Source: an uncultured Treponema sp.
GTDB lineage: Bacteria > Spirochaetota > Spirochaetia > Treponematales > Treponemataceae
Assembly: GCA_947165895.1 (NCBI GenBank)
Contig: CAMVCB010000005.1
Coordinates: forward strand, 310,001 to 374,000
Direction: 5' to 3'
Length of the DNA: 64,000 bases
This document shows, piece after piece, positions 19,879-49,983 of this stretch (positions are counted from its first letter, which is position 1; each line of letters begins with the position of its first letter). Position numbers and translations under genes: made by a program. Below the pieces are notes generated by a model. It saw only the letters and a program-made list of their open reading frames with translations, was not told the DNA's origin and made no database searches.

Positions 19879-22425
19879 ATGAAAGAAAATAATAATCAGC
19901 TGGATTACGGACAGTTTGTAACAAAGGACGGAAAGGTTTCTCCTAAAATCAATAGTATCAGGCTTAAAAACCGCTCGCTTCTCTCTTCTGAAGCAGATAT
20001 TCACCTGGCAGGAAGCGTAGTTACCCGCACAGAACTTTCCGACGCAGAAATCAGACAGAATAAAAAGAAGGTGGAAAAGCGCCGCAGAAAACGGGTTGCT
20101 GCCATCACAAAAAATATCAGACGTTCACAAAAGGTTGCAAAACGCATTGAAGCCTTGAATCTGAAAAATCAGAAGGCCGCAAATAAGGTTGCCAGAATTG
20201 CCACTAAAAAAGAGGCAAAAGCAAGGCAGAAGGCCATTAATAAAAGCCTTGGCAGCAACAGATTTTCAATCGGCGTAAAGCTTATTTCTATTATATCTGC
20301 CCTGGTAATCATCTCTCTGGGACTGATTACCTTCCTGGTTTCAATGTTCGTTTCCGGCGATGCAAAAATCAGTGCGGAAGACAATAACCTTACAATTAAC
20401 AGCCGCACTTCCGCAGATACAGAAAACCGCCTTAAATCCGTAATGTCAAATGTCGGAATGTTTTTCGATCTGCTTGAAGGCTCGGATGGAGACCTGGAGC
20501 TTGCAAGAAACTCGGCCCTCTTTTTCCGCAGAAATCAGGATATTGCGGCTGTGATTTTGCCGGAAGAAAACTGGATTTACACAAACAAGGCCTTTTTCCT
20601 TAAAAATGAACTGGAAGAAAATCTCCTTGAAGGTTATGCAGATTTTGAAAGGGAAGCGGTTGAACTTTCGGCCCGGGGCTCATATGTCCTTAAAAATGCC
20701 TCATCCGTCTTTTCCATTCCTATGCTTTCCCTTTTCTTCCCGATTTCAATCGGCGGGGTGCCAAAAAGCGTAATCGTAATTTATTCAACCGAAGCTCTGT
20801 CTGAAAGCTTTGGAACAGGTTCAATCAGCCTTTCCTTCTTTGTAAACAGCGCGGGCGAAGTTCTGATTCACCCGGATTTGGATTTGATGATGAATGACGC
20901 AAATTTGAGTGAAAGCTTCATTGTTAACCGCATGAAGGAAAGCACCAGCAATAACGGACAGATTACCTTCCTGCAGACTGAAGGTGATGAAGCAGGTAAC
21001 GAGCTCGAATCCGAATATATCGGTGCCTTCCACAAGATTTTTAACGGAAGCGGTGCTGTAATCACTGTTGTAAAAACTTCCGTAATCCTTGAGGCTGTAA
21101 ACGCAACCACAAGAAGAAATATTTATCTTACTGTGGCAATCCTTTCTCTTGCCATTCTGATAATTTATGCCTTTGCAAAATCTCTTAGCAGTCCTCTTAA
21201 AACCCTTACAGCGGTTGCAAATGAAATCAACAAGGCAAACTTTAATACTGAACTTTTTGAAGAGCTGAATACAAACCGCAGGGATGAAATCGGCGTTCTT
21301 ATTCAGTCAACAAAACAGGAACGGGAGATTCTGAACACCTTTACAAAGCTTACCAACAAGGGTGTAACCGATGCTATCGTCCTTAAAAAAATCGACTTTG
21401 AACCTCATCTTAAGGATATTTCGATTTTCTTCAGCGATATCCGCGGTTTTACGGCAATTTCAGACGGATTTAAGAACCGCTTTGGTGAGGAATCTGCCGC
21501 CGAAATTATAGGATTTTTGAACGACTACATGAGCCGCATGGTAACCTGTATTACAAATACCGGCGGTGTAGTTGATAAATTTGAAGGGGACGCAATTATG
21601 GCCTGCTGGGGCGTCCTGCGTAATGATGACCTTGACTGCGAGCTTTCTCTTGAAGACCACATCGGAAAAATCCAGCGTAAGACAAACCGCATTCTTTCTG
21701 ATGAAGAAAAGGCAGAATTGATTGCGAAGCGTGAGGAATTTGAAAAAAATCATGCCCAGCATGTTATGGACGATGCAATCAGTGCAATTACCGCCTCTGT
21801 TGCAATGCGCTACTCTCTGATGAAGTACAACAAGGATGCAGAAGCCTTTACAAAGGCTCATGAAGGGGAACCTCTTGCCAAGTATAAGCCTCACATCAGA
21901 ATCGGTTCGGGCATAAATACAGGCCGTGCAACTGTTGGCTTTATGGGGTCTTATGACAAAATGGAATTTACTTCAATTGGTGATGCCGTAAACTTTGCAA
22001 GCCGAACAGAGGCAAGTAACAAGCCTTGCGGAACCGACCTTTTGATTACGGAAGATACTTATAATCTTTTGAAGAGCCGTTATATCCGCTGTACAGAAAA
22101 TAATTTTACGATTGCGGAAGAAGATTTACCTTACGAAATTCATGTAGAGCAGATTCCTGTAGAGTTTGAGGTAAAGGGAAAGGGGGCCCAGCATTTCTAT
22201 GCAGTAGTTAATCTTCCTAATTTTAATATAGAAGAATTCTTTAAAAAAGCTGACCCGTCATTTGAAGTTGATAAGGACTGTATTAAGGCCGTTGGTCCTG
22301 AAGGTCCGAAAGACATTCATGCACTCAGAGCCATGCTTGGAATTCCTGAGCCGGATTTTGAAGGAGTAAACCTTGATGAAGAAGAAAACAAGATTCAAGT
22401 CAAAGGGCAAAGCTCTGGCTCGTGA
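19879..22425 (+). CDS. Membrane-bound class III adenylate cyclase with extracytoplasmic sensor
   Basis: Makes cAMP from ATP. The 848 residues comprise a highly basic, probably coiled-coil cytoplasmic N terminus (1-130), membrane segment 1 (about 134-157), and a periplasmic Cache-like sensor (160-410). Membrane segment 2 (413-432), a HAMP-like linker and a class III cyclase domain (about 505-790) follow. Metal-binding Asp residues are in FFSDIRGFT and FEGDAIMACWG. Adenine selection by Lys (VDKFEGD) and Asp (SIGDAVNFASR) points to adenylate rather than guanylate activity. An insert of about 60 residues splits the catalytic domain. It heads an operon and overlaps the FecR gene. It resembles treponemal TP0485 from memory. 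Confidence 0.88.
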   Translation: MKENNNQLDYGQFVTKDGKVSPKINSIRLKNRSLLSSEADIHLAGSVVTRTELSDAEIRQNKKKVEKRRRKRVAAITKNIRRSQKVAKRIEALNLKNQKAANKVARIATKKEAKARQKAINKSLGSNRFSIGVKLISIISALVIISLGLITFLVSMFVSGDAKISAEDNNLTINSRTSADTENRLKSVMSNVGMFFDLLEGSDGDLELARNSALFFRRNQDIAAVILPEENWIYTNKAFFLKNELEENLLEGYADFEREAVELSARGSYVLKNASSVFSIPMLSLFFPISIGGVPKSVIVIYSTEALSESFGTGSISLSFFVNSAGEVLIHPDLDLMMNDANLSESFIVNRMKESTSNNGQITFLQTEGDEAGNELESEYIGAFHKIFNGSGAVITVVKTSVILEAVNATTRRNIYLTVAILSLAILIIYAFAKSLSSPLKTLTAVANEINKANFNTELFEELNTNRRDEIGVLIQSTKQEREILNTFTKLTNKGVTDAIVLKKIDFEPHLKDISIFFSDIRGFTAISDGFKNRFGEESAAEIIGFLNDYMSRMVTCITNTGGVVDKFEGDAIMACWGVLRNDDLDCELSLEDHIGKIQRKTNRILSDEEKAELIAKREEFEKNHAQHVMDDAISAITASVAMRYSLMKYNKDAEAFTKAHEGEPLAKYKPHIRIGSGINTGRATVGFMGSYDKMEFTSIGDAVNFASRTEASNKPCGTDLLITEDTYNLLKSRYIRCTENNFTIAEEDLPYEIHVEQIPVEFEVKGKGAQHFYAVVNLPNFNIEEFFKKADPSFEVDKDCIKAVGPEGPKDIHALRAMLGIPEPDFEGVNLDEEENKIQVKGQSSGS

Positions 22426-25222
22426 TTTTCTGGTTGCGGCCGCCTGTCTTTCTGTTTTTGCGGCAAGCATCTGGCTCTTCTGGAATGATTTAAATAAGAC
22501 CTCAACCCGAAGCGATAAGGATGCTATCGCTACTATTACTTTTAAATACAAGGTAGCCCAGCGCAAGTTTACCGACCGTGTTGTCTGGGAAAGACTGCAG
22601 CAGAATTCTCCTCTTTATGATGAAGATACAATCCGAACTTCAGATTTGTCGACAGCTACAATCACCTTTAACGGCGGTGAAGTTCTTGCCGTCCATGAAA
22701 ACACCATGGTTCAGATTTTTAAATCCAGCGACGGAAGCCTGCGCCTTAGTGTAGGGGACGGTGGAGTTGAGGTTGATACTTCGGATTCTAAGGCTTCTTC
22801 AATGGAAATTGAAATGAAGGACGGAAGCCTTGTAAATCTTGAGGCGGGAAGCCGACTTAGCGCAAGCTCTGCTTCTGACGGCGAATCCAGTTTTCAGCTG
22901 GCAAGCGGAAGCGGTCTTGTTGCGGGGCAGGTTCCACTTTCTGCAGGGCAGACTGTAAAGGTGGAAAATGGTCTGGTTCAGAAAGTTCCTCTTTCCGTAA
23001 CGTCTATTTCAAACGACCTTTGGATTCTGAACAGCGAAAAAACGCCTGCTCCCGTTCATCTTGAATGGCATGCAGAAGAAGCTTCATCCTCGGGAAAATT
23101 TGTAGTCCAGACCTCGCGTTCCAAAGATTTTGATAAAATTGATTCTGAAATCCAGGTTCAGAATTTAAATTACGCCGATATTCCTGTTACTGAAGGAAAT
23201 TTTTACTGGCGGGTATTTGAAGAATATGAGCCTGAAAAGATGGTAAGCGGAAAAATCCACATGAGTAATTTAGTTGAGCCGGAGCTGCTTTCTCCTGCGG
23301 ATAATGCTGTCTATAAATATAGAAAAACTCTGCCTCAGCTTTCTTTCAGCTGGGAAGAAAGTCCTCTTGCCCAGTATTATCGCCTTGAAGTTTCTTCCAG
23401 CCCGGATTTTTCTGCTGTCGAGCTTTCAAAAGATGTACAGGGCTTAAGCTATTCGGCCTCGGAGTTGAAAGAAGGTAATTACTTCTGGCGGGTTACCCCT
23501 TACTATAATCTTAATAATACAGGTTTTAAGGGCTCTTCCCGTCTTGCAGCCTTTACAATCCAGAAGGCTGAAATCCTTACAAAACCTGTAACAGTAAGTC
23601 CTGCTGACAATGCAAATCTTTTTTACGTTTCAAAAGAGCTTAATACAAACTTCCGCTGGCAGAAGGAGGACGTAGAAGCTCAATACGAACTGCTTCTTTC
23701 TGATACAGAGGATTTTTCATCAATTATTTATTCTGAGTCCACAAGTCAGAACAGAATTCAAAAGGATTTTACTCCTGAAAATCTGCCTGCAGGAAGCTAC
23801 TGGTGGAAGGTTTGCCGTAAGGCTTTGCCGGAGCAGGAGCTTGAAGAAGAATGGTCTGATGTTAAGACTTTTAACGTTGCCTTTTATTCTCCTAAGAAAA
23901 CCCGAATCCTTTATCCGCCGGATAATTTTTATACAGACACAGAAAATCTTCTGCTTACAGGCTTCAGCTGGAAGGCTGGTGATGAGCTTGATTTGAAAAA
24001 AGCAGATGACAGCGAATACGGAATTCAGAGCCTGATTCAGTTCTCAAAAAGTCAGGATTTTTCTTCTATTGATTTGGAAAAGACAACAAGAGAAAATCAG
24101 ATTGAAAATATCAGTCTTGAGGGCGGAAAATACTACTGGCGTGTCGGACTAAGGGCAAGTGCTGCATCTGAACTTCACTTTACTCAGGTTCAGTCTCTTA
24201 CAGTCCTTAAAGAACTTGAGTCTGTAAAGGTGACTTCTCCTCTTCCGTCCCAGACTGTGCTTGTATCACAGGCTCGTCCTCTTCGTATTGGCTGGCAGCC
24301 TTGTCAGGATGCTGATTATTATACTGTTAGGATTTTTAATAAGGCTGACGGAAGTCTTTTGCAGGAAAAATCCTTTGTAAAAGATAACTTTGCAGTCTTT
24401 AATACAGAAGACTTTTTGAAAGCTCCTTCCATGGAAATAAGCTGTTCTGTTCAGGCTTTTGCAAATGCCAGTGAATATGCGGCAGAAAGAAAAGGAAAAG
24501 AAAGCCTTGTTGATTTTGCAATAAGACAGCCGGATCCTGTAAAGCTTCTTCTGCCTGCTGCGGAAGGAAAAATCGCAGGACTGGACGCCCTTAGAAAACC
24601 TGTAGTCTTCAGCTGGCAGGAGGGAAGAGATCTTCCTCAAAAAAGCTTCTTTGTAATCCAGAAACTGCAGTCTTCAGCTGCTTATAAGGACTTCCATGTA
24701 ATTGAAAATCCGTCTAAGGAAATCAATCTTGAAGGACTCACAGCCGGAACTTACCGCTGGACTGTAAGGGCAAGCCTTGCTGACGGTACTTCTGTAAATG
24801 CGGCAGATTATAAGACTTTTTATGTGCTTCCTGTTCCAGAGCTTGAAAAACCTCTTTTGCAGGAACCTGAGAATGGCTTTATAATTAATACAGGCTTTCT
24901 TAAAAAGAACAGAACTCTTAAATTCAGATGGCAGGAAGTTCCCGATGCTACCGACTATACTTTCACTCTTTACAAAAAAGGCAGTGACGGAAGGCTTCTT
25001 CATGTTTCTACTATAAAAACCGGTAAAAATCCGGGCGTAAATTTCAGGGAGCTCAAGCTTCTGGATATAGGTGAGTTTGAATGGCAGGTAACGGCTTATT
25101 CAATCAACAAAAAGGGATTTGAGGAACAGCACAGTAAGGCGGCAAGCGGAAGCTTTGTAATTGACATTCAGCTTCCAAAAAGCGTTAATGTAAAGAATCC
25201 GGGAGAAATCTTCATTGAATAA
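22376..25222 (+). CDS. FecR-domain membrane protein with fibronectin-like repeats
   Basis: A membrane-anchored extracytoplasmic protein of about 948 residues. After a basic start comes one membrane segment (near 14-34), then a FecR domain. This shows DTIRTSDLSTATITFNGG, VHENTMVQI and the LEAGSRLSA repeat-like beta strands. Several repeats of about 90-100 residues follow, each ending with a Y-W-R motif such as EGNFYWRVFE, EGNYFWRVTP, GKYYWRVGL and GTYRWTVRA. These look like fibronectin type III-like modules. The start overlaps the cyclase gene by 50 bases, with AAGGAG upstream of the ATG. Known FecR domains sense or bind envelope ligands. Here the pairing with a cyclase suggests an envelope signal feeding cAMP. 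Confidence 0.8.
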   Translation: MKKKTRFKSKGKALARDFLVAAACLSVFAASIWLFWNDLNKTSTRSDKDAIATITFKYKVAQRKFTDRVVWERLQQNSPLYDEDTIRTSDLSTATITFNGGEVLAVHENTMVQIFKSSDGSLRLSVGDGGVEVDTSDSKASSMEIEMKDGSLVNLEAGSRLSASSASDGESSFQLASGSGLVAGQVPLSAGQTVKVENGLVQKVPLSVTSISNDLWILNSEKTPAPVHLEWHAEEASSSGKFVVQTSRSKDFDKIDSEIQVQNLNYADIPVTEGNFYWRVFEEYEPEKMVSGKIHMSNLVEPELLSPADNAVYKYRKTLPQLSFSWEESPLAQYYRLEVSSSPDFSAVELSKDVQGLSYSASELKEGNYFWRVTPYYNLNNTGFKGSSRLAAFTIQKAEILTKPVTVSPADNANLFYVSKELNTNFRWQKEDVEAQYELLLSDTEDFSSIIYSESTSQNRIQKDFTPENLPAGSYWWKVCRKALPEQELEEEWSDVKTFNVAFYSPKKTRILYPPDNFYTDTENLLLTGFSWKAGDELDLKKADDSEYGIQSLIQFSKSQDFSSIDLEKTTRENQIENISLEGGKYYWRVGLRASAASELHFTQVQSLTVLKELESVKVTSPLPSQTVLVSQARPLRIGWQPCQDADYYTVRIFNKADGSLLQEKSFVKDNFAVFNTEDFLKAPSMEISCSVQAFANASEYAAERKGKESLVDFAIRQPDPVKLLLPAAEGKIAGLDALRKPVVFSWQEGRDLPQKSFFVIQKLQSSAAYKDFHVIENPSKEINLEGLTAGTYRWTVRASLADGTSVNAADYKTFYVLPVPELEKPLLQEPENGFIINTGFLKKNRTLKFRWQEVPDATDYTFTLYKKGSDGRLLHVSTIKTGKNPGVNFRELKLLDIGEFEWQVTAYSINKKGFEEQHSKAASGSFVIDIQLPKSVNVKNPGEIFIE

Positions 25223-27439: not shown

Positions 27440-29098
27440 TTACTTTCTGCCCTTGTATTTTATGGCCAGCATGGTAAGGTCATCAAACTGAGGTGCTGAG
27501 CCCACAAATTTATCAACTTCACTTCGAACATTAGAAAGCAAATCCTCTGGGGAAGCGTCTGCATTGATGTTAAGAGCATTTTTCAAACGGTCTAACTCAA
27601 AGAGCTTTTCATCTGCATTTGTCGCTTCAGGAACGCCGTCTGTATAAATAAAGAGAGTTGAACCTTTTTCAAGGGCAATTTCATAATCTTTATACTTTGC
27701 ACCTTCAAAGCCCGCAAGAACTAGTCCGTGCTTGTCCTGTACAAACTCGAAGTCTTTTCCCGGCTGGCGGACAACAGGATATTCGTGACCGGCATTTGCG
27801 GCTTTCAGAATGCCCGTGTTCAAATCAAGAATTCCAAGCCATACAGTTACGAAGAGATTTGCCTCATTTCCTTCACAGAGCTGATTGTTTGCATCCTGCA
27901 GAACTTCGGAAGGAAGGGGAAGGGAGCCGAATAAAGCCCGGTTTTTGATAATAGTCTTTGAAATCGCCATGAAAAGGGCTGCCGGAACTCCTTTGCCCGA
28001 AACATCAGCCATAACAAGGGCCAGGTGGTCCTCATCAATGAAGAAGAAATCATAGAAATCTCCGCCGACTTCCTTTGCAGGAGTCATAGATGCTGCAAGT
28101 TCAAAATCACTTCGGTTTGAAAATTCCTTGTCTATGCGGGGAAGCATGTCTGCCTGAATTTTTGTTGCTACATTTAAATCGGTAGAAATGCGTTCAAGCT
28201 CCTTTGTCTCTGTAAGAAGCCTCTGCATGTAATTTTTTGTGTCTGTGGCCATGCTGATAAGGCTTTTTGCAAGGCTTTGAATTTCATCTTTTGTCTGAAT
28301 GTCTGGGTCTTTGAATTTAAGACTTTCGAGGTCATCACCGTTAGCCTTCTGAACAAAATCAGAGGCCGAATGCTGCAATCTTTTAAGAGGATAAATTACG
28401 CGGCGGTTGAGCCAGAGAATCAGAATTAAGATGAAGAAAACCGCAAGAATAAAGCCGGCTACAAAAATTCTTACAGGGTAGACCCGCAGGGTCACATCAA
28501 TATCTGTCATGTTGATGTCAACGCTCATTACGCCAAGAGCTTTTCCTGCAGAATTGCGGACAACTATCGAGGTCGTGTAAACGCTGCCCCATTCTGTTTT
28601 GTTGGGATAATACCAGTATTCTCCGGGCTTGCTGTTCATGTAAAAATCAAGATATTTTTGAGCAACCTCAGGCGGATATTCAGTGCCGCTCAGCTTTCCA
28701 AGTCTTACAATGTCTTCTCCCCGGTCTTTATATGCCTGATATTCCTGCTCTGTGTTGCCTGTACAGATGTATTGCATGTTGTTATTTTTTTCTGTATTTA
28801 GTGGTACAAGCATGTAAAGCCAGTTGATTTTTGCATTGCTTTTTATATAGTCCATCCGCTTTCTCAATCTCAAAAGAGCTTCATCCTCTTCATTTTTTTG
28901 AATTGACTGGTCAAGTGCATCCCAGTCAAAGCCATTTACCGCAAGATTCAGGGTGAAAACTTCATAATCTTTATACTTCTGAATCATGCCCAGATAATAA
29001 GTTTGATAGCCTACAAATCCCAGACAGATTGAAAGCAGGATTGTAAAAATTTCAACTGCAAGAGACAGACTTGTGTTTAATTTCTTTTTTGTATCCAT
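27440..29098 (-). CDS. Membrane sensor PP2C/SpoIIE-type serine phosphatase
   Basis: RsbU-like phosphatase of 552 residues. The layout is membrane segment 1 (about 12-34), an extracytoplasmic Cache-like sensor (35-205), membrane segment 2 (about 210-232), a HAMP/linker helix and a PP2C domain from about 315. Metal-binding motifs are PAKEVGGDFYDFF, MADVSGKGVPAALFMA, FIYTDGVPEATN and the terminal FDDLTMLAI. It should dephosphorylate an anti-sigma-factor antagonist type protein, although no RsbV/RsbW gene is present here. It is the third gene of a trio, 12 bases after the MFS fusion, and probably shares its signal. Confidence 0.88.
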   Translation of the reverse strand: MDTKKKLNTSLSLAVEIFTILLSICLGFVGYQTYYLGMIQKYKDYEVFTLNLAVNGFDWDALDQSIQKNEEDEALLRLRKRMDYIKSNAKINWLYMLVPLNTEKNNNMQYICTGNTEQEYQAYKDRGEDIVRLGKLSGTEYPPEVAQKYLDFYMNSKPGEYWYYPNKTEWGSVYTTSIVVRNSAGKALGVMSVDINMTDIDVTLRVYPVRIFVAGFILAVFFILILILWLNRRVIYPLKRLQHSASDFVQKANGDDLESLKFKDPDIQTKDEIQSLAKSLISMATDTKNYMQRLLTETKELERISTDLNVATKIQADMLPRIDKEFSNRSDFELAASMTPAKEVGGDFYDFFFIDEDHLALVMADVSGKGVPAALFMAISKTIIKNRALFGSLPLPSEVLQDANNQLCEGNEANLFVTVWLGILDLNTGILKAANAGHEYPVVRQPGKDFEFVQDKHGLVLAGFEGAKYKDYEIALEKGSTLFIYTDGVPEATNADEKLFELDRLKNALNINADASPEDLLSNVRSEVDKFVGSAPQFDDLTMLAIKYKGRK

Positions 29099-29110: not shown

Positions 29111-31987
29111 TTATTTTTTTAGGATTGAAAAATTTATTACTATGTGAAGAATGCTTAACAGCAGCAGCACTCCCGCAAATATGACTGTTGATACAATGAC
29201 GTTTCTGGAAAGAAAAACCAGAGCCATCATTGCAGGACCAAAAGACTGTCCGATAAAATCTGTGAAATTAAATACGCCCATAGCATCGGCTATGCCATAT
29301 TCCTCACATTCATCAAGAAGTGAGAATTGAGTCTGCAAAACAGAACGCCCAAAGCCGTTTGAAAGTCCGAGTACAAAAATTGCAGCCAGAAGTCCTGTAA
29401 GGTTTCCTATAAATGCATAAAGAAGAACGGCAAAGGCATTTAAGAGCACCGGTGTGTAAGGGCTCATGCTGCCTGTTTTTTTAATAACCCATTTTGTCAG
29501 TCCGTTACCAAGATAAATTGCAAAGAAGGAATAAAGCATCATCAGGGCTGCAACAGCGACTTCACTTAGCCCGTGCGTATCAGAATAAAGAGGCAGATAA
29601 TAGTAAATAAATCCTCCCATCAGTGCAAAAGGCGCCTGTATCAGGATGATAAAAGACCAGATTCGTTTTTTAAGGATAAAGGGCAGAACTCTTCCGAATG
29701 TCCGCTTTTCCTTAGTCTCTTGAGGGGTAGCCGGGCTGGAATCAAGACCAAGGGTACGCCAGAAAATAATAAAGAGCAGGGCGGAAAAAATCCACATGGC
29801 CGAGACAAGAGGGAAGATTAGCTGCCGTCCTATTGTAGAAGCAAGTGCCGCACCAAAGAGCATACCGAAGTTGATTCCCGAAATTTGTGCTGCATTGTAA
29901 GCAACATAGCCTGAGGCCCGGTTTTTAGGGCTTGGAATCTGCGAAACCATGAGGTACATTGAATTTGTAGTAAGTCCGACTCCGATTCCGTCAATCACAA
30001 GGGCAAGAAAAAGCAGGGGATAGGACAAAGGAAAAGTAAAGATTATCAGATTGCTTGCTGCCGACAAAAATGTACCGGCTGCGATTATTTTTTTACAGCC
30101 AAAGCGGCGGATAATGCCTTCGCAGAAAAGAGCCATCAGGCCGATTATGAAAAGGTTTACCGAGATTGGAAGGGCAGCCGCAAATTTTACCATTCCGTCG
30201 CCAAGAGATTCGAAGGCACCCCGGGTAATTACCATTGGCAGGAAGGTTGTCGTCATGTTGTAAGCAGCAAAAAGGGCAAAAACTATCAGGCGGATGTAGT
30301 AATGAGGGAAGATTTTGGTCTCAAGACCGGAACGGGATTTTTCTTCCTTTGCTTCAAGCTCTGCCCGGGATTTTGAAAGGATGTAGGAAAGTGCTTCTCC
30401 CATCAAAAGCCAGACGAAAATCAGGGTGACTACAAGTCCCAGCAGAACGCTTTTTTTCATGCCGGTTATTTTATCGTTCAGCATGAAATTTTCGGTCATC
30501 ACGGATACAACACCACAAACCTTTCCGTAGTCATTGATTACAGGAACCGAAACATAAGTATAGGATGCCGAAGTATCATCCTTACTGGAATGGACGGCGC
30601 GGGCAGTTTCATAAATCTGCTTTATTTCTTCGGTTTCACCCTGGGTAAGAGGATAGAATGTTCCGATTGCCTGATCCAGATAGGCACAGGCATAAGCCCC
30701 GTGAGTTTCATCATATTTAAAAATATCACAGTAAACATTACGGTTTACATCAAGATTACAGTCAATTACATCTTCCATGCTGGAAATCATCTGCCGGTAT
30801 TCTTCAGAAGCAAAGTCAGCTGCCTGGTGAATTGAATCAAGAGTTGCCGGACGAATAATGTTTGCCACTGAATAAGCCATGTTTTCCATCTGAGCAAGAA
30901 TCTGACCGCTCATGACCTTTGAAAACTCATTAGTCAGCTTAAAGGTAACAGTTCCTGCTACTGCCATAGCAACGATAACTGTATAAATACTGATTCTCTG
31001 AATAATCTGGAGATTGCTGTTCAGAAAGGCAAGAATTCCTACGGCAAGGAATAATAGTGACGAAATGACAAAAAGAATTAATATTAATAGAAGAAAAAAC
31101 TGTTTTTTCAAAATAGAAGTATTTTTTACAGGATCTTCAATTGAAAACAAAGAAACTGGAGATACTGTGGTAAAGCCGCTGGCTGTCAGAACCCTTTTTT
31201 TTTCTCCAGTCTGAAGGTTAAGTTTTATTACTCCGTCGGAATAAAGGTCAGAATACAAAAGTGAATCTTTTCCATCGCTTTCTATCCAGTTTGGAAACTC
31301 ATTGTGAGCGGCGCTGTAAATGAGTTCAAGTCTGCTTTTATAAAGGCGGAATAAACGTCCGGCCTTGTCCAGCATAAAAATTTTTCCATCCGGACATTGA
31401 GCCATATCGTTTACAAAATTGAAGGCATCTGTATAAGGAAATTCTGTTTTTGACACTTCTCCAGTCTCAATGTTGAAGCTGGCTGTGCAAATCGAATTTT
31501 TATTTTTTTCAGCATAATTGATTTTTCCTTCCGTCACAGAAAGAAGCATGATTTTGTGCTTGTTGACCATTTTTTCGTATCTCGTATCGAGGTAAGTTGC
31601 CTTGTAATGGCCGTCAGCATCGTAAACAAGCACTGCTTCCCGGGAAATTCTGTTTCCATCCCAGGCACCCTCCTTTACATAGACATTTCCTTCTTCATCA
31701 ACTAAAAAATCATCGGCATAGAAAAAACTGTCAGGCTGTCTGCCTGGTGGTGGCAGAACATGACGGACGGTATTTGATTCCTTTTCTACAACAATGATTC
31801 GTGTCCTCTGGTTATCGAGAATATAGCGAAGCGGACCGTAATCACGTACGATATATGGTGAATCAAGTTTAATTTCTTTTGAAACCGGAAATTCAATTTC
31901 ATTTTTATGAAAAAAACAGACCAGACCAAAAATAAGCGAAAGTATAAAAAGTCCTAAAGGCAAAAGCTTTTTTTTAGCGTTTATCAT
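29111..31987 (-). CDS. Fusion of periplasmic propeller-like domain, sensor domain and MFS transporter
   Basis: A 958-residue polytopic protein with unusual architecture. One membrane segment (about 10-27) precedes an NHL/beta-propeller-like region (about 40-290; FLVDEEGNVYVKEG, DMAQCPDGKIFMLDKAGRLF). Two membrane segments, a Cache-like sensor (about 355-505; YTYVSVPVINDYGKVCGVVSV) and another membrane segment follow. The last 400 residues make a 12-segment major facilitator core (IRRFGCKK between segments 2 and 3, GIGVGLTTNSMYLMVSQIPSP). Substrate is unknown. Its start overlaps the upstream gene by 14 bases and the phosphatase follows 12 bases after its stop, so the three form an operon. Confidence 0.78.
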   Translation of the reverse strand: MINAKKKLLPLGLFILSLIFGLVCFFHKNEIEFPVSKEIKLDSPYIVRDYGPLRYILDNQRTRIIVVEKESNTVRHVLPPPGRQPDSFFYADDFLVDEEGNVYVKEGAWDGNRISREAVLVYDADGHYKATYLDTRYEKMVNKHKIMLLSVTEGKINYAEKNKNSICTASFNIETGEVSKTEFPYTDAFNFVNDMAQCPDGKIFMLDKAGRLFRLYKSRLELIYSAAHNEFPNWIESDGKDSLLYSDLYSDGVIKLNLQTGEKKRVLTASGFTTVSPVSLFSIEDPVKNTSILKKQFFLLLILILFVISSLLFLAVGILAFLNSNLQIIQRISIYTVIVAMAVAGTVTFKLTNEFSKVMSGQILAQMENMAYSVANIIRPATLDSIHQAADFASEEYRQMISSMEDVIDCNLDVNRNVYCDIFKYDETHGAYACAYLDQAIGTFYPLTQGETEEIKQIYETARAVHSSKDDTSASYTYVSVPVINDYGKVCGVVSVMTENFMLNDKITGMKKSVLLGLVVTLIFVWLLMGEALSYILSKSRAELEAKEEKSRSGLETKIFPHYYIRLIVFALFAAYNMTTTFLPMVITRGAFESLGDGMVKFAAALPISVNLFIIGLMALFCEGIIRRFGCKKIIAAGTFLSAASNLIIFTFPLSYPLLFLALVIDGIGVGLTTNSMYLMVSQIPSPKNRASGYVAYNAAQISGINFGMLFGAALASTIGRQLIFPLVSAMWIFSALLFIIFWRTLGLDSSPATPQETKEKRTFGRVLPFILKKRIWSFIILIQAPFALMGGFIYYYLPLYSDTHGLSEVAVAALMMLYSFFAIYLGNGLTKWVIKKTGSMSPYTPVLLNAFAVLLYAFIGNLTGLLAAIFVLGLSNGFGRSVLQTQFSLLDECEEYGIADAMGVFNFTDFIGQSFGPAMMALVFLSRNVIVSTVIFAGVLLLLSILHIVINFSILKK

Positions 31988-33323
31988 AATCTTCCTTTTT
32001 TATGTATTCCTTGTATTGAGTTTCGGTTGAAAAAAGTGTGCGCCAGCCGTCTGAACTCATTCTGATGGGATACAAAAGGGCGGCCAGTTTTATTTCGCCC
32101 TTGTGCATTTTGCGGCATTTCCAGAAGGAATCTGTTTCGCCCAGATAATCGACTTCAAGAATATTCCTGACTCCGTAGAAATAGAAGGGCAGGGCCGGCA
32201 GGGTGATGTAATCCTTAACAGACTCAATTTTTTCCTGAATGCCGGAAATTATTCTATTTGTTGATGGTTTTTGTACGAATGGTTCACGCTTTTCGTAATA
32301 TAAATTCAAAAGTTCTTTTGTTTCGCCGCTCATCAGCATGCATTCAACGTCGGGGTATTTTCTTTTGAAGAATTCAAAAAGTTCTTCGTACATTTTGATG
32401 ACAGGGCGCGCAACTTCCCTGAAGCGTTCATGAGCCCTTCGGCGGATTTCTTCCGGCAAAGGCTGTAGCATTGCATCCAGATATTTCTGGTAGGAGGCAT
32501 CGACAATAGGAAGGGTAAGAACCGAGCCAGTTGCACTTGCAAGCTCAAAAAGATAGAGGACGCTGTCAAATTCCTCTGTGGTAAGAAGGCTTTTGTGGCT
32601 TATAAAAGAAATGTCAGTGACATTCTGAGCGTTTTCTTTTGTGAACTCAGCTTCCTGTGAAACTTTGTCTTCAGCACTGCGGCGGCGGGTCGTAAAATCG
32701 TAAATTTTCTGACTTCCATCTTTTAGGGTCCAGATCATATCAACCTCATGCTCTCCAAAAAAACAGGGGCCGCCTGTGATTGCTGTTTTTTCACCATTAG
32801 CTACAGCCCGGGCAAAATCTTCAAGTCCTGCAGTAAAATATGGCATCTGTTCTTTAAATGGCCAGCGTACTTTTTTAAATTGAGGAAGCTTATCTTCGAC
32901 TGTCTTAAAATCATTAATTTCTACAAAGGTTTTGTAGATGATGGAGGAGCCTTTACTCGCCTTTGATAAATCAATCTTTGAAAGAATTTCCTTTTTACGG
33001 GTGCGAAGTTCCTTGATTCTGTCTTTGTTTGCAATTGTATCACCGGAATTCTTGTAGCTTTTTATTTCTGAGTTGATTTTTTCGACTTCGATTCTGTCAT
33101 TTTCTTCAAGAAGATTTTCGGCATTATTTAAATCCGCTGCTTTACCCCTGGCGATTTCGAAAAAATTTGCAGCACTAAAAGGCCAGCGGATAAAATCATT
33201 TGAAGAATTTTTGTAAATCGTGTCGCTTTGTTTTACACCCAGCGAAGCCAGAAGACTCTGAGTTGAGTAAATATCCTTTCCATGAACATAAAAGTACTCT
33301 TCGTTGTGTTCGCGGTTTTCCAT
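31974..33323 (-). CDS. Unrecognised cytoplasmic protein, first gene of the MFS-phosphatase trio
   Basis: A 449-residue soluble protein without signal peptide or membrane segment. I recognise no family. Features are a charged Lys/Glu coiled-coil stretch near 75-125, ITGGPCFFGEHEVDMIWTL with IYDFTTRRRS near 200-225, and a Phe/Arg-rich helical part (HERFREVARPVIKMYEELFEFFKRKYPD). A C-terminal ILEVDYLGETDSFWKC is also visible. The frame can be extended to 33548, but the extension translates a terminator and the repeat element, so I start at MENREHNEEY. That ATG has no ribosome site and lies 7 bases after TGCTATAAT. Confidence 0.7.
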   Translation of the reverse strand: MENREHNEEYFYVHGKDIYSTQSLLASLGVKQSDTIYKNSSNDFIRWPFSAANFFEIARGKAADLNNAENLLEENDRIEVEKINSEIKSYKNSGDTIANKDRIKELRTRKKEILSKIDLSKASKGSSIIYKTFVEINDFKTVEDKLPQFKKVRWPFKEQMPYFTAGLEDFARAVANGEKTAITGGPCFFGEHEVDMIWTLKDGSQKIYDFTTRRRSAEDKVSQEAEFTKENAQNVTDISFISHKSLLTTEEFDSVLYLFELASATGSVLTLPIVDASYQKYLDAMLQPLPEEIRRRAHERFREVARPVIKMYEELFEFFKRKYPDVECMLMSGETKELLNLYYEKREPFVQKPSTNRIISGIQEKIESVKDYITLPALPFYFYGVRNILEVDYLGETDSFWKCRKMHKGEIKLAALLYPIRMSSDGWRTLFSTETQYKEYIKKEDYDKR

Positions 33324-33452: not shown

Positions 33453-33568
33453 GCTTTCAGTCGTCAACATCGTGTTGCCTCCTTTCAGCCCGCCTGCGTT
33501 CGCTGACGCGTGCATCCATGCACGCTTTTCGCCTGACGGCGCGCTCACTTCGTTTCGAATCCAGCATA
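33440..33568. repeat. 129-bp palindromic element with 13-bp inverted ends
   Basis: TATGCTGGATTCG at one end is the exact inverse of CGAATCCAGCATA at the other. The ends correspond to the T-arm and acceptor sequence of tRNA-Pro. The 103-base interior is much richer in G and C than the surroundings and holds a perfect hairpin, GCGTGCAT-CC-ATGCACGC (33508-33525). This element, with the flanking terminators, fills the only gene-free stretch over 300 bases. No protein gene is credible in it. Confidence 0.75.
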
Positions 33569-34645: not shown

Positions 34646-34669
34646 TAAAATTGATATGGATTTGTGTTA

Positions 34670-36508
34670 ATGAGACTATTGAACCTGCTGAAAAAATATA
34701 TATATCTTGCCGCTGCTCTATCTGTTTATCCTTTTTCTGTTTCCTGTTCAAAAACTCTGGAACTGGATATTGCAGAAATTGAAGCGATTCAGAAGTCTCT
34801 TGATTACGATTTACTCCAGAAATCTCTTTCCAGACCCTACCTTAATCAGCCTTTTAAGCCCGGAAAAACCGGCGGAATCTGGAATGACACGATTCTTTCT
34901 GACCCAAAAACTTTTAATCAGCTTGTAGGAATTCGTGACGGAAGCAGTCATGACATTATTACAAAAACTCTGACCGGGCTTTTTGATTATGATCCTGTCG
35001 ATAAAAAATGGTTGTCACATGCTGCTTCCTTTCAGACTGAATTAAATTCTGAAACAGGCATGCTTATCCTGCATTGTAAAATCCGTGATGACATTTACTG
35101 GACCTACTGCAATTCTGACGAAAAAATCCCCCTTACATCTGATGATTTTGTCTTCTGGTATAATGAAATTGAAGGCGATGAAAAGGCTGGGCTTGGCGGC
35201 TATGAAGGACAGTGCCTTACTATGCCGGACGGAAGCCAGGCTCATATAGACTGCATAAAAATTGATGATAAGAATTTTGATTTTATTTACCCCCGGGCTG
35301 TAGCAGAGCCTCTGCTTCATTCAAATATGACCTGCTGTCCTTCCTTTATTTTCCGTCCCGCAAAAGAAAAAGGCGGCATAGACGGCGTAAAAAATCTTTT
35401 TGGTATCAACTGCGACCCGAAAACAATTCCTTCCTGCGGAAAATTCTATATAACTGAATACATTCCTTCCCGCCGTCTTGTTTTTACAAGAAATCCTTAT
35501 TACTGGGAAAAGGATGAAAATGGAACTTCTATTCCATATTATGAGCAGCTTGTATGCCAGATTGTCGGCGACCAGAATACGGATTATCTGCTTTTCCGTC
35601 AGGGAAAAACAGAAGTCTATTCTCCCCGCCCTGAAGAATTGAGTGATGTTGTAAACAATCAGAAATCAGATTACACGGTTTACAATGCAGAAGGTTCAAT
35701 GGGCAGCCAGCTCTGGACTTTTAATCAGAATCCAAAAAACAGGGAGCAGCCTTTTTACAGCTGGTTTACAAAAAAAGAATTCCGTCAGGCTATGAGCTGT
35801 ATTTTGAACCGGGAAAGAATCATTAATCAGACTTACCGCGGACTTGCAGAAGCCCAGTATTTTTTCTTTCCGCCAATCAATCCTTACTACAATGAAAAAA
35901 TTCAGCTGGAGTACCTCTATAATCCTGAGAGAGCAAAAAAACTTCTTTCCCGTGCAGGCTTTAAATGGGATGAAGAAGGAAAACTTATTGATGAAAAAGG
36001 AAATACTGTTGAGTTTGATCTTTCAATTGCATCGGGAATTACCGTTACAAATGATATTGCCCAGATTATCAGTGATGAAGGGGCAAAAATCGGAATAAAA
36101 ATAAATGTGCGTCAGACAGATTTCCAAAAGCTTGTTGAAGCTGCGACTACCACTTTTGACTGGCAGTCATTGATTATAGGACTTGGGATTTATGCCTTCC
36201 CGACTCAGGGTTCAAATGTCTGGCCTTCAAGCGGAAATCTTCATATCTGGTATCCGCTTCAGAAGGAAGCTGCCACAGACTGGGAAGCCCGCATAGACTA
36301 TCTTTATGAAGAAGGGGGCTGTGCGCTTGACCCGGCTGCTGCAAAAAAAATCTGGGATGAGTATCAGGCTATCTTTCTGGAAGAATGTCCGGTTATTTTC
36401 CTTGTGCGCGAAAGAAGCTTCTGTGCAATCCGTAACCGCTGGGATTTATCGAATGTTTATTTTGATAACAAAAACGGCTTTGAAACAGAGTGGATTTATT
36501 TGCGTTAG
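34670..36508 (+). CDS. Peptide ABC transporter substrate-binding lipoprotein (OppA/DppA type)
   Basis: Family 5 extracellular solute-binding protein of 612 residues. The signal peptide ends VSVSCSKT. The mature protein shows the family core, DDIYWTYCN followed by LTSDDFVFWYNEI, GKFYITEYIPSRRLVFTRNPYYWEKDE, and FRQAMSCILNRERIINQTYRGLAEA. It should capture oligopeptides for the permeases encoded downstream. I prefer the ATG over a GTG two codons earlier because GGA lies 9 bases before it. A diguanylate cyclase gene separates it from the permease genes. Confidence 0.9.
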   Translation: MRLLNLLKKYIYLAAALSVYPFSVSCSKTLELDIAEIEAIQKSLDYDLLQKSLSRPYLNQPFKPGKTGGIWNDTILSDPKTFNQLVGIRDGSSHDIITKTLTGLFDYDPVDKKWLSHAASFQTELNSETGMLILHCKIRDDIYWTYCNSDEKIPLTSDDFVFWYNEIEGDEKAGLGGYEGQCLTMPDGSQAHIDCIKIDDKNFDFIYPRAVAEPLLHSNMTCCPSFIFRPAKEKGGIDGVKNLFGINCDPKTIPSCGKFYITEYIPSRRLVFTRNPYYWEKDENGTSIPYYEQLVCQIVGDQNTDYLLFRQGKTEVYSPRPEELSDVVNNQKSDYTVYNAEGSMGSQLWTFNQNPKNREQPFYSWFTKKEFRQAMSCILNRERIINQTYRGLAEAQYFFFPPINPYYNEKIQLEYLYNPERAKKLLSRAGFKWDEEGKLIDEKGNTVEFDLSIASGITVTNDIAQIISDEGAKIGIKINVRQTDFQKLVEAATTTFDWQSLIIGLGIYAFPTQGSNVWPSSGNLHIWYPLQKEAATDWEARIDYLYEEGGCALDPAAAKKIWDEYQAIFLEECPVIFLVRERSFCAIRNRWDLSNVYFDNKNGFETEWIYLR

Positions 36509-36552
36509 AGTGAAAAGTTGTTTATAATATCAGCTAAGGCTTTATAGAATTC

Positions 36553-38235
36553 ATGCGGTACAGAAGCAGGGTAAATCGAACTATAATTTTTGCAATTATT
36601 TCTCTTTTTGTATGTAATTTTGCTGTCAGACTTATTTACGGCAGTTATCGCAGAAGCCTTGAAAGAAAAAACGATAAGATTCTTGACGAAAAAATTGCAC
36701 AAATCAGTTATGAACAGGGAGGAATGGATTATAACATTTCTCTTCTGGAATCTCTCCTTAAATTAAAAAATCTTACAGATGCCCAGTATGGACGTATTTA
36801 TCTTTTAATTGCCAATTCCCATTACATTGCCGGCGACATGAAATCATATTTTGACGTCATAGGAAAGGCTCTTTTTTATAATCAGAGGGCAGGGGCTAAG
36901 GATGATACGATTTATCTTTATGCAAATATGGCAAAATATTTTCTGGAAATAAATGCAGATGAGCAGGCTTTTTCTCTTATAAAAAGGGCAGCAGCTTTCG
37001 GTTCTTTTTACAGCTGTGAAAATATTCTTACAAGAATTCAGGCACTACAGGTATATTCTAGCTATTTGATTGCAGAAAAAAAATATGAAAATGCCTATCT
37101 TGCGGCTCAAAAAATTATAGATGACGCTCCTGCTACAGCTTCCTTTACGCCTGTTTTTCCCAAGCGCTTTGAAAGGTCAGGAAAGGCTATAAAGGCCATG
37201 ATTCTTCTTAAGCAGAATAAAATTAACGAGGCTTACATAACTGCCTGCCAGCTTTGGGAAAAATATGCGGATGAAAATGAAAATGTTTCCCAGTTTTGTG
37301 CCTTCGATTTTTATATGCCTCTACTTGAAATAAAAACCCACTGGGCTGTTTCTCAGAAAAAATATGATAAGGCACTAGAATTCAACGAGCTGTACGGTAA
37401 ATACTGTGATATGTTTTTCTTTAAGACTAAAAAGACCCAGCTTTCTGGCTTTCTGATGTCTTCCCTGCCTCCTCAGATGGGTAAGGAGAGGGGCCAGCTT
37501 TATGCCCAGCTTTCTGAAACCTCCCAGTCTCTTGTAAAAACTCTGGTTAATGATTATACATATCTTGCAGACAATAAATTTTCTACTGTTATAAATGAGC
37601 TCGAACTCCAATCCGAAATCCATGAAAAATCGCAGGAATTGATTCATGCCCTGCTGATTAATTTATTTATTGCTGCTGTTATCCTGCTTTTTATTTATGC
37701 TGTATTCAGGGAAGCAAGAACGGACGGACTTACAAAGCTTTTTAACCGCAGGGCGCTTAATTCAAAAATCCACTGGCTTGAAAAATTCCAAAGGGGTTAT
37801 TCTGCAATTATGATTGACCTTGATGATTTTAAAAAGCTGAATGATACTTATGGACATGACTTTGGCGACGAAGTTTTGCGTTCAGTCTGTAGGGTTGTGC
37901 TTGACTCGGAGCATCATAATGTTTATGCCTACCGCTACGGGGGAGAGGAAATTGTTATAATCCTTGAACATACCTCGTTTGATGATATAATTCGTCAGGC
38001 AGAATCAATCAGGACAAAAATCTGCCGTATAAAGTTTGAAAACGGTGCCAGAATTACTGCAAGCTTTGGAATAGGAGCAAAACCCGAAAATCCTATAAAG
38101 CAGGCGGATGAAAACCTTTATTATGCAAAGAACAAGGGAAAGAATATTGTTGCATACAAGCTGAACGGAAATCAGTATCTTGCAGAACGTCGTCTGGAAA
38201 TCAGAAATCCGATGCCGGATACAGTAAAAAAATAA
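36553..38235 (+). CDS. Membrane diguanylate cyclase with periplasmic TPR-like sensor
   Basis: Makes c-di-GMP from two GTP. The 560 residues comprise a membrane segment (about 9-29), a 330-residue region of helical repeats suggestive of TPRs (IYLLIANSHYIAGDMKSYF, YLFANMAKYFLEI-like), a second membrane segment (about 366-386) and a GGDEF domain. TDGLTKLFNRRALN and the active-site loop YRYGGEEIVII (near 460-467) are intact. I see no RxxD inhibitory site at the usual distance before it. The gene lies between the peptide-binding lipoprotein and oppB, suggesting a link between peptide supply and c-di-GMP. Confidence 0.9.
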   Translation: MRYRSRVNRTIIFAIISLFVCNFAVRLIYGSYRRSLERKNDKILDEKIAQISYEQGGMDYNISLLESLLKLKNLTDAQYGRIYLLIANSHYIAGDMKSYFDVIGKALFYNQRAGAKDDTIYLYANMAKYFLEINADEQAFSLIKRAAAFGSFYSCENILTRIQALQVYSSYLIAEKKYENAYLAAQKIIDDAPATASFTPVFPKRFERSGKAIKAMILLKQNKINEAYITACQLWEKYADENENVSQFCAFDFYMPLLEIKTHWAVSQKKYDKALEFNELYGKYCDMFFFKTKKTQLSGFLMSSLPPQMGKERGQLYAQLSETSQSLVKTLVNDYTYLADNKFSTVINELELQSEIHEKSQELIHALLINLFIAAVILLFIYAVFREARTDGLTKLFNRRALNSKIHWLEKFQRGYSAIMIDLDDFKKLNDTYGHDFGDEVLRSVCRVVLDSEHHNVYAYRYGGEEIVIILEHTSFDDIIRQAESIRTKICRIKFENGARITASFGIGAKPENPIKQADENLYYAKNKGKNIVAYKLNGNQYLAERRLEIRNPMPDTVKK

Positions 38236-38257
38236 GTTAAAAATTGGATAATTAAAA

Positions 38258-39325
38258 ATGAAGGTGTGGGATTTTTATAAAAAAAAGGCTCCTCTTGCAG
38301 CCTTTATTACGGGACGACTGATTACAATGCTCGTCCTTCTTTTCTTTCTTGGCTTTGCCCTCTTCGGCCTTATGGAGCTTGCTCCCGGCGATATTGTAGA
38401 TCAGATGATGAGCCAGCAGATTATGTCCAGCATGGAAGGCGGGCATAAAAATAATCAGGTAAAAAATTCCGATGATGATTTATTTAATGAAAAGCAGATG
38501 GCTCAGCTGAGATCAGAGTTCGGACTTGATAAGCCCTTTTACATTCAGTATTTTAAGTGGCTGGAAAGGGTAATCATTCATCATGACCTTGGAACAAGCC
38601 TTATTTCCAGGGCCCCGGTCAGCTTTTTAATCCGAAGCAGAATCTGGAATTCTGTTCTCTTGAACCTTATTTCCCTTGTTTTTATCACGCTTTTTTCTTT
38701 TATACTGGGAGTTTATTTTTCCAGCAAGGCGGGAAGTAATATTGATACGGCAGTTACCTTTTTTGCCCTTTTTTTCCATGCCTTCCCGGGCCTGCTTCTT
38801 TTAATTCTTGTCCAGCTTTTTGCGGCTGTAACGGGACTTTTTCCGGTTACCGCCTATCCGGATTTTTCTTTTGCGGACGCACCTGCCCGCTTTACATTCA
38901 GCTATATACATCATATTTTCCTCCCGCTTCTTGTGTCCTTCCTGGGCGGAGCCGGAGGAACCATGCGCATGATCCGCGCCACCATGCTGGATCAGATGGG
39001 TATGCCTTATATTTTTGCCCTGCGGGCCCGCGGCATTTCTGAAAAACGTGTCTATCTGAATCACGCCTTCAGAAATACATTAAATCCCTATATTACGGGA
39101 AGCGCCAATCTTCTTGCCTCCCTTTTTTCAGGCTCCCTGGTTCTTGAAATCATCTTTGCCTATCCCGGAATCGGCCGCCTGATGTATGAAGCCGTAATGC
39201 AGCAGGACATCAATCTTGTTCTTGCAAATTCTATGTTTATTTCTGCCCTGGTTCTTGTGGGCATGGTAATCAGCGATATTCTTCTGGCCTTTGTGGACCC
39301 GAGAATCCGCTATGGAAAGGAGTAG
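38258..39325 (+). CDS. oppB: Peptide ABC transporter permease (OppB/DppB type)
   Basis: First permease of the oligopeptide importer, 355 residues with six membrane segments. Family marks are LMELAPGDIVDQMM near the first segment, LRSEFGLDKPFYIQYFKWL, and the EAA-like ATPase contact RARGISEKRVYLNHAFRNTLNP. The ending AFVDPRIRYGK is typical. GATAAT ends 5 bases before the ATG, and no good ribosome site is seen, so an internal leaderless start is possible. The next gene starts 6 bases after its stop. Confidence 0.92.
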   Translation: MKVWDFYKKKAPLAAFITGRLITMLVLLFFLGFALFGLMELAPGDIVDQMMSQQIMSSMEGGHKNNQVKNSDDDLFNEKQMAQLRSEFGLDKPFYIQYFKWLERVIIHHDLGTSLISRAPVSFLIRSRIWNSVLLNLISLVFITLFSFILGVYFSSKAGSNIDTAVTFFALFFHAFPGLLLLILVQLFAAVTGLFPVTAYPDFSFADAPARFTFSYIHHIFLPLLVSFLGGAGGTMRMIRATMLDQMGMPYIFALRARGISEKRVYLNHAFRNTLNPYITGSANLLASLFSGSLVLEIIFAYPGIGRLMYEAVMQQDINLVLANSMFISALVLVGMVISDILLAFVDPRIRYGKE

Positions 39326-39331
39326 GGCAGT

Positions 39332-41455: not shown

Positions 41456-42404
41456 AATTCTTGAAGTCCGCAATTTATACAAGCAGTTTAATATGGAAGC
41501 CGGCTTTTTTTCCAAAAACCGCCAGAACGTTTATGCTGTAAATGACCTTTCCTTTACCCTTGAAAAGGGACAGACTTACGGAATTGTCGGTGAATCCGGC
41601 TGCGGAAAAACTACAACTGCAAAAATGATTATCCGGCTTTTTAAGCAGACCTCCGGAGAAATCATTTATTATCCCGGGGAAGGCCAGGCTCTTTCGCTTT
41701 CATCCCTGAATAAAAAAGAGCTTTCCCGCTACCGGGAGCAGGTAAAATATGTTTTTCAGGACCCTGCCCGTTCCCTCAATCCCCGTATGTCGGTTTTTGA
41801 GGTACTCACTGCAGGTTTAAAATATTCTTCCCTCTGGCAGGGCCGTGACCAGGCTTTAGAAAGCGCGTCAAAAATCCTTTGTGAGGTTGGACTTTCGGAA
41901 GGGGATTTGTTCCGCCGTCCGGCAGAATTTTCGGGCGGTCAGCGGCAGCGCATTTCCATTGCCCGCGGACTTATTATGAATCCCCGCCTTCTTTTATGCG
42001 ATGAAGTTGTAAGTGCCCTTGATGTTTCCATTCAGGGACAGATTATAAACCTTTTATGTGATCTGCGGGAAAAACGAGGCCTGACTTATTTATTTATCAC
42101 CCATGATTTAAAAGTAGCCTGCTACTTCTGCGACAGAATCGGCGTAATGTACCGCGGTCTTATGGTAGAAGAAGCTCCTGCAAAAGACCTTTATAAAAAT
42201 GCCCTTCATCCATACACAAAGCTTCTTTTCAGCGGAGCCAGAGGCGAGCTTACGGCATCAAATAAGGAAGTAAAAACAAGCCTTAGTCAGGAAAAATGCT
42301 GTCCTTTTGCCTACCGCTGTCCTCATGCAATGGAACGCTGTCAGAAAGAAGTCCCTGCTTTCAGGAATGGGGGAAACGGGCACAAAATCCGCTGTTTTTT
42401 ATAA
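41448..42404 (+). CDS. oppF: Peptide ABC transporter ATP-binding protein (OppF/DppF type)
   Basis: Second ATPase of the peptide importer, 318 residues. Walker A GESGCGKT is at 48-55, followed by YVFQDPARSLNPRMSV, signature FSGGQRQRISIARGL, Walker B LLLCDEVVSALD (Val in place of the usual Pro after DE) and ITHDLKVACYFCDRI. The terminal cysteine-rich CPFAYRCPHAMERC is the usual OppF C-terminal motif. The start MSKILEVRNL has GGAGAGG upstream. A frame beginning earlier only runs through the end of the fusion gene. Confidence 0.92.
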   Translation: MSKILEVRNLYKQFNMEAGFFSKNRQNVYAVNDLSFTLEKGQTYGIVGESGCGKTTTAKMIIRLFKQTSGEIIYYPGEGQALSLSSLNKKELSRYREQVKYVFQDPARSLNPRMSVFEVLTAGLKYSSLWQGRDQALESASKILCEVGLSEGDLFRRPAEFSGGQRQRISIARGLIMNPRLLLCDEVVSALDVSIQGQIINLLCDLREKRGLTYLFITHDLKVACYFCDRIGVMYRGLMVEEAPAKDLYKNALHPYTKLLFSGARGELTASNKEVKTSLSQEKCCPFAYRCPHAMERCQKEVPAFRNGGNGHKIRCFL

Positions 42405-49506: not shown

Positions 49507-49908
49507 GGTGGTGCTGCTGGTGAAGGTGGTACTGTTATTACTACGACAGTCAGCTGTGGAAAAAGTAAGGCGACAGGTTACCGTGTAAACGATTCAAGTT
49601 CTGGTTTTAGTTATGATTATGCTTCTGGTGCCGGAGGTGCAGGAGGCGGAGGCGGTGCTGGCGGTAATGGTGCTCCCATTGGTACTGGCGGTGCTGGTGG
49701 AGGAGGCGGCGGCGGTGGAGCCGGCGGCTCAATCAACGGTAATTCAAGCGGGAATCGTAAATATGTTGGCGGTCATGCTGGAGCTGGCGGTCTTCCTTCT
49801 GGTGGCAATGGTGAAGAAGATATTGAACAGAATCGAACTACAGGTTCCGGCGGTTCCGGTGGCGCAGCTGGAACTGGTGGAGTGGCTGCAACTGTAGGCA
49901 CCTTATAA
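49507..49908 (+). pseudogene. In-frame continuation of the Gly-rich lipoprotein past a TAA
   Basis: In the same frame as the preceding gene, 133 codons stay open after the single TAA at 49504-49506. They encode Gly-rich sequence (GAGGAGGGGGAGG, AGTGGVAATVG) that continues the preceding tail and end in TAA at 49906-49908. GGC-TAA-GGT-GGT would be one base from GGC-GAA or GGC-CAA-GGT-GGT. So either the gene is a recent nonsense mutant, or the stop is read through, or the base is a sequencing error. No start or ribosome site of its own is visible. Confidence 0.75.
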
Positions 49909-49917
49909 ATTCACTTC

Positions 49918-49947
49918 TTGAATAATACTTAAGTTATGCACTATAAT
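49918..49947 (+). promoter_or_regulatory. Promoter of the carbamoyltransferase gene
   Basis: TTGAAT, an 18-base spacer and TATAAT. The leader is about 30 bases with GAGGTGC before the ATG. Confidence 0.55.
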
Positions 49948-49983
49948 TAAACTTTCAATATCATTTTAGGTGCGAGGTGCGCT

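Follow-up and report, generated by a model that had tools for sequence, protein, structure and literature searches.

In the 64,000-nucleotide stretch of DNA from an uncultured Treponema that was analysed here (the window), a single gene joins a predicted periplasmic receptor to the core of a major facilitator superfamily (MFS) transporter. We propose that the receptor part of the encoded chain, in the periplasm, gates the transporter part, which would probably export or flip the product of a neighbouring enzyme, and we give this reading a probability of roughly 0.55. Known outputs of such receptors include kinases, cyclases, phosphatases and chemotaxis proteins. If a transporter is indeed the output in this case, then the whole path from an outside ligand to the movement of a substrate across the same membrane would be very short, all of it within one chain, and the changing enzyme partners of such chains point to uncharacterised amino-acid-type products in gut and other spirochaetes.

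Architecture of the chain

The initial annotation had described one chain made up of a propeller-like region, a sensor between membrane segments and an MFS core, and this order was borne out by the single open frame, by Pfam and by the predicted model. The chain runs from a transmembrane (TM) helix through a beta-propeller, two further TM helices, a Cache-like domain and another TM helix to the MFS core (Table 1). A frame error or the joining of two genes, which the same annotation had raised as a concern, can be ruled out, since full-length homologues free of stops (58-65% identity) are present in four other genomes of the genus. Counting its own genome, 5 of 36 same-genus genomes hold a full-length homologue, and a match of any kind was found in 11 of 59 genomes. 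Structure prediction, domain searches and a genome survey had been suggested as checks, and these revealed, respectively, a propeller together with a Cache-like topology between membrane helices, a Pfam MFS_1 match with Cache-type profile matches below cut-off, and the same architecture and neighbours in related loci.

Table 1. Position and supporting evidence of the chain, its parts and its two neighbours in the window
Feature	Position	Strand	Evidence
Partner protein, 449 aa from the start common to relatives	31974..33323	-	class Ic aminoacyl-tRNA synthetase-like predicted fold; overlaps chain by 14 bp
Sensor-MFS chain, 958 aa, single gene	29111..31987	-	one open frame of 958 codons; homologues; Pfam; model
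First membrane helix, residues 8-26	31910..31966	-	hydropathy; model helix
Beta-propeller region, residues 38-282, predicted periplasmic	31142..31876	-	Z 15.1-16.5 to solved propellers
Second membrane helix, residues 298-316	31040..31096	-	hydropathy
Third membrane helix, residues 332-350	30938..30994	-	hydropathy
Cache-like sensor domain, residues 351-513, predicted periplasmic	30449..30937	-	model topology; profile matches
Fourth membrane helix, residues 514-532, then cytoplasmic linker of ~30 residues	30392..30448	-	hydropathy
MFS core, residues 563-958	29114..30301	-	Pfam MFS_1 569-918; twelve helices in low-confidence model
SpoIIE-type membrane phosphatase, extracytoplasmic sensor and HAMP	27440..29098	-	12 bp after chain; SpoIIE E 2e-46

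Provided that the first helix runs from inside to outside, the hydropathy of the chain places both sensor domains outside and the start of the MFS core inside. The predicted model of the whole chain (mean pLDDT 58.8) begins with a helix at residues 8-26 and about twenty strands between residues 46 and 267; two membrane helices lead to a domain of mixed helices and strands, and a further membrane helix precedes a final set of twelve helices. NCBIfam profiles gave only weak partial matches to the chain, a sequence-based search for a solved structure related to the whole of it returned none, and no relatives were found among viral contigs.

The propeller region was modelled with a pLDDT mostly between 63 and 91 per ten-residue block, and the predicted fold aligned with those of solved propellers (TolB-like, YWTD, NHL and Pizza6) over approximately 209-240 residues at 3.1-3.9 Å. 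This comparison, which covers the propeller region, assigns a predicted propeller fold to residues 38-282, and we read its modelled strands as falling into about five four-strand blades. The Cache-like part appears in the model, flanked by two membrane helices, as a long helix and two strands followed by a second helix and three more strands. Its best PDB profile matches were PDC-type sensors (a histidine kinase and CitA, E 0.006-0.03), and of the 36 sensors aligned (linked to transporters, linked to cyclases, or other), 15 matched the Pfam family sCache_3_2 and 11 matched sCache_3_3, all below cut-off. Taking the model and the profiles together, the second extracytoplasmic domain reads as Cache-like.

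MFS_1 is the sole Pfam match in the chain (residues 569-918, 94 bits against a cut-off of 33.4, E 1.2e-26) and places it, by profile, in the major facilitator superfamily. Confidence in the MFS part of the model is low (pLDDT mostly below 50), and so the assignment rests on the Pfam profile and no contact between sensor and MFS core can be read from the model; it contains twelve helices, and simple hydropathy gives ten segments. Motif A of MFS transporters sits in the loop between helices 2 and 3 and is common, if not universal. In the cores from the window-type loci (L048-L069, n = 22, kin of the chain described here; L054 and L064 are from one assembly) this motif is degenerate, its basic residues and glycine being kept and its acidic residue replaced. 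Several charged positions are invariant in these cores, including D666 and D910; the latter, towards the end of the core, is the same in all 22, and its position is acidic in 59% of 32 other cores. Such conserved charges would fit a working, ion-coupled transporter, against which the degenerate motif A has to be counted.

The receptor module and its outputs

The propeller-Cache module is also found ahead of HAMP and a class III cyclase in other spirochaete proteins, and in three chains it precedes HAMP, HisKA, HATPase, receiver and Hpt domains (L108 and L110 tested by Pfam). Judged from these sequences, it is a portable receptor input for signalling which has been joined to class III cyclases and to hybrid histidine kinases. 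Because the same module feeds these enzymes, the MFS core can be said to hold the output place in our chain. The initial annotation had hinted at a transporter acting as a receptor, but this is probably the wrong way round, since the receptor module drives catalytic outputs in the sister proteins and the transporter is therefore the more likely output. Its broader suggestion, that transport and signalling are coupled, has been strengthened rather than directly shown, both by the presence of the module on cyclases and histidine kinases and by the conserved operon partners considered below.

In a quick tree of 66 sensor modules, from which the rows of 13 near-copy loci had been dropped beforehand, the MFS-linked sensors require six label changes, at least five of which are forced by starred branches. 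It is therefore likely that the outputs of the module have been exchanged repeatedly, at times which the tree does not give. MFS cores also occur behind a membrane region with one Cache-like stretch (L088, L091, L114) and behind two membrane sensor regions (L105, L106), and in L080 two propeller-Cache modules share a chain with an MFS core. When a model was built from 37 sensor-linked MFS cores, eight left-out sensor-linked chains scored 101-252 bits against it, compared with 16-48 bits for three distinct free-standing MFS proteins. By this measure, and with a free-standing sample as small as three, the cores look like one MFS subfamily living with sensors.

Some of these loci have further features. 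The two-sensor MFS genes of L105 (310-4064) and L106 (6336-10069) come directly after a gene for an ABC_sub_bind type binding protein (tested in L105). Proteins in L079 (9315-11468) and L087 (569-2797) carry a propeller-Cache module with a C-terminal stretch that resembles a solute-binding protein fragment, without Pfam support. In L020 (2207-10569), two sensor-cyclase genes adjoin a TLC-like membrane transporter fused to two cyclic-nucleotide-binding domains, and here the same sensor perhaps controls a transporter via a second messenger rather than by fusion.

Distribution and conserved neighbours

Genome searches for homologues were conducted inside Spirochaetota. With part matches included, the chain was matched in 65 of 291 genomes of an order-level sample (E <= 0.001) and in 42 of 392 genomes of a phylum-level sample (E <= 1e-6), and full sensor-MFS chains with the same domain order were found in other Treponema as well as in several further families and classes of the phylum. 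A scan of named genome records using two peptide patterns returned Treponema and uncultured Spirochaetaceae records only, giving 25 loci, of which 22 were window-type and three of a more distant type. The window-type loci belong to Treponema or uncultured Spirochaetaceae assemblies, several of them titled ruminant gut (goat, yak, water buffalo, roe deer).

The chain was initially described as lying between an unknown protein and a phosphatase with its own sensor, and this holds at both ends, at 31974 and at 27440-29098. By our count, the partner gene is upstream of the chain in all 18 window-type loci having that flank, and its 14-bp overlap with the chain is kept in 17 of 18. The SpoIIE phosphatase is likewise downstream in all 20 loci having that flank, as only a cut-off start in L049 and L059. 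The flanks beyond this trio vary among the window-type loci; the trio is constant. An RsbW-kinase-like frame of 134-137 aa is found just upstream in 5 of the 22 loci (L053, L056, L065, L068, L069), with a STAS gene beside it in L056, L065 and L069, and in L063 a STAS gene is directly upstream. These genes, of which those in L056 were tested by Pfam, are a partner-switching set near the trio. Oligopeptide-transporter genes are also located near the trio in the window (34664-42404), and like genes directly follow the phosphatase in several relatives (BPD_transp_1 in L050, which was tested).

The phosphatase is of the SpoIIE type by its domain and by the motifs GGDFYD, ADVSGKG, YTDG and DDLTM, which we take to be the SpoIIE/PP2C metal-site motifs; the Pfam match to its HAMP falls just below cut-off. 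Its sensor is Cache-type and without a propeller, so the phosphatase need not see the chain's ligand. Profile comparison of this sensor with the Cache part of the chain gave a probability of 95.8 and an E of 6.7e-9, across an alignment that spans membrane helices in a register that looks poor, and for these reasons it lends weak support to a distant likeness between the two.

The partner protein, whose longest frame starts at 33548, gave a model with a mean pLDDT of 75.3. This model matched tryptophanyl-tRNA synthetases with Z up to 15.4 (247 residues, 3.6 Å) and tyrosyl-tRNA synthetases with Z of about 11, and Foldseek returned class Ic synthetases and cyclodipeptide synthases at E 0.01 or worse, which places the predicted structure among class Ic Rossmann folds. 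A KMHKG or KMHKN stretch is conserved in the rows of its alignment, and HxGH (the HIGH signature) is absent from all 18. There was no synthetase among the seven matches up to E 10 in a PDB profile search, nor any profile match to the genome's own TrpRS, and on these three grounds the partner was rejected as a true TrpRS. A PD-(D/E)XK nuclease, guessed from a motif, was unsupported by the fold matches. We read the partner, on the evidence of its predicted fold, as a class Ic synthetase-like protein and leave its reaction unassigned. Among the 291 genomes, the ten same-genus genomes with a strong sensor-MFS match are also those that have the partner gene. The gene is not confined to the trio: one further genome, of family f5, has a distant stand-alone copy with no sensor-MFS gene beside it, although a cut-off sensor-MFS chain lies elsewhere in that genome.

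Beyond the window-type loci, the gene beside the chain varies by group and may encode an LPG_synthase_C enzyme, a formyltransferase or a GNAT in place of the synthetase-like protein, and the signalling gene is usually a cyclase with the same module in place of the SpoIIE phosphatase. In the f5-type loci (L070-L093, 18 distinct, with L072 and L085 being one locus), 17 of the 18 have LPG_synthase_C, either upstream of the chain or as a fusion with the cyclase, the exception (L092) being cut by a contig edge, and a sensor-cyclase is present in the same stretch in 10 of the 18; the counts are ours, the domain was labelled by a local model, and three such genes were tested by Pfam. The order is sensor-MFS, sensor-cyclase, formyltransferase in six loci (L094, L095, L097-L100) and sensor-cyclase, sensor-MFS, LPG_synthase_C in three (L101-L103). 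A GNAT follows in L104; the L096 locus is cut short by the end of its contig, and the case of L112 is weak. A SpoIIE phosphatase gene precedes the other sensor-linked MFS in L088, L091 and L114. From the partners as a set we infer amino-acid or acyl chemistry. The window itself has a stand-alone LPG_synthase_C gene (1177-2103, E 4e-30) about 27 kb from the trio; in other spirochaetes, enzymes of this type accompany the chain.

Proposed function and known systems

In the receptor-gated reading that we favour, the propeller and the Cache-like domain would bind a ligand or a partner protein in the periplasm, and the signal would cross via the last sensor membrane helix and the cytoplasmic linker into the MFS core, altering its transport activity. 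The adjoining enzyme gene suggests that the substrate is the enzyme's product and that transport is outward, such that the MFS core may export or flip whatever is made by the synthetase-like protein in window-type loci or by LPG_synthase_C, the formyltransferase or the GNAT in relatives. The SpoIIE phosphatase, or elsewhere the cyclase with the same sensor, could read a related cue and, by way of partner switching or a cyclic nucleotide, reset gene expression.

Three alternatives need to be weighed against this. The MFS part may itself be a second sensor that hardly transports, with the chain signalling by touching the phosphatase or cyclase, as UhpC does with UhpB. The constant signalling enzyme beside the chain in the window-type group and the degenerate motif A would both be in keeping with this, but the receptor module already supplies an input, the sister proteins carry enzymatic outputs, and the gene directly adjoining the chain in f5-type loci is that for the LPG_synthase_C enzyme and not always a signalling gene, so that we consider this reading unlikely. 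More doubtful still is a circuit in which a secreted signal or a modified lipid, made by the enzyme, is sent out by the chain and then detected outside by the sensors of the chain and of its partner. In its favour, the exporter-like chain is constant while the type of enzyme next to it changes, and transporter and cyclase carry the same sensor within one locus. However, the transporter and cyclase sensors fall on different tree branches in most loci, the product is hypothetical, and the enzymes could equally serve envelope lipid or peptide chemistry. With the same degree of doubt, one could picture a spirochaete cassette in which a changeable enzyme produces a signal or lipid derived from amino acids. 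A receptor-gated MFS would export this product, and the receptor module of the transporter, together with the same module of a cyclase (or the Cache of a phosphatase), would sense it outside and so close a cell-to-cell or envelope feedback loop. That the MFS part is a mere membrane anchor or pairing domain, or the fusion a neutral accident, is improbable. The degenerate motif A and the absence of the chain from most genomes of the genus would fit such a reading; against it stand the persistence of the fusion across several families and classes of a single phylum, the repeated joining of MFS cores to sensors of different kinds, and the constancy of the trio where the outer flanks differ among relatives.

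The receptor-gated reading has partial counterparts in several known systems. In Cache receptors, as in the chain, a periplasmic sensor between membrane helices feeds an output behind the last helix (PMC4822843). The outputs listed in the Cache census of 2016 include chemotaxis proteins, histidine kinases, c-di-GMP enzymes, serine phosphatases and adenylate/guanylate cyclases, along with serine/threonine kinases, transcription factors and ion channels; its main text nowhere uses the words "transporter", "MFS" or "permease" (PMC4822843). Where those receptors have a cyclase, kinase or phosphatase as output, the chain has an MFS transporter. The fusion of a sensor to an MFS core is as such already known from the SPX-MFS vacuolar phosphate transporters of plants (VPT1), in which the sensor domain likewise stands before the core; these are eukaryotic proteins, and SPX is another kind of sensor. 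The SPX sensor is cytosolic. Pfam found no SPX domain in the chain.

CbrA resembles the chain in uniting a transporter fold and signalling within one system, its transporter-like part being described as the input. The transporter is also the input in the transceptor UhpC. In contrast to both, the chain has an extra receptor module as input, and its transporter is the likely output. A further likeness is to MprF, an aminoacyl-phospholipid synthase and flippase, whose membrane part has been proposed to be MFS-like (a proposal cited in PMC8131360); loci related to ours similarly pair an LPG_synthase_C enzyme with an MFS-type membrane protein. They differ from MprF in that enzyme and transporter are separate genes, the core is a Pfam MFS_1 core and a receptor has been added, and in window-type loci the enzyme is replaced by the synthetase-like protein. 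No LPG_synthase domain was matched by Pfam in the chain, the enzyme being a separate gene in the relatives. An earlier description of the propeller-Cache-MFS architecture was not found in the open-licence paper library searched.

Two other regions of the window are worth recording. At 19879-25222, there is an overlap between an adenylate-cyclase-like membrane protein and a FecR-domain protein in which strand-rich units are repeated, and the strongest GC skew of the 64,000 nucleotides (0.25, at 48001-50000) lies over the glycine-rich end of the 47167-49506 frame.
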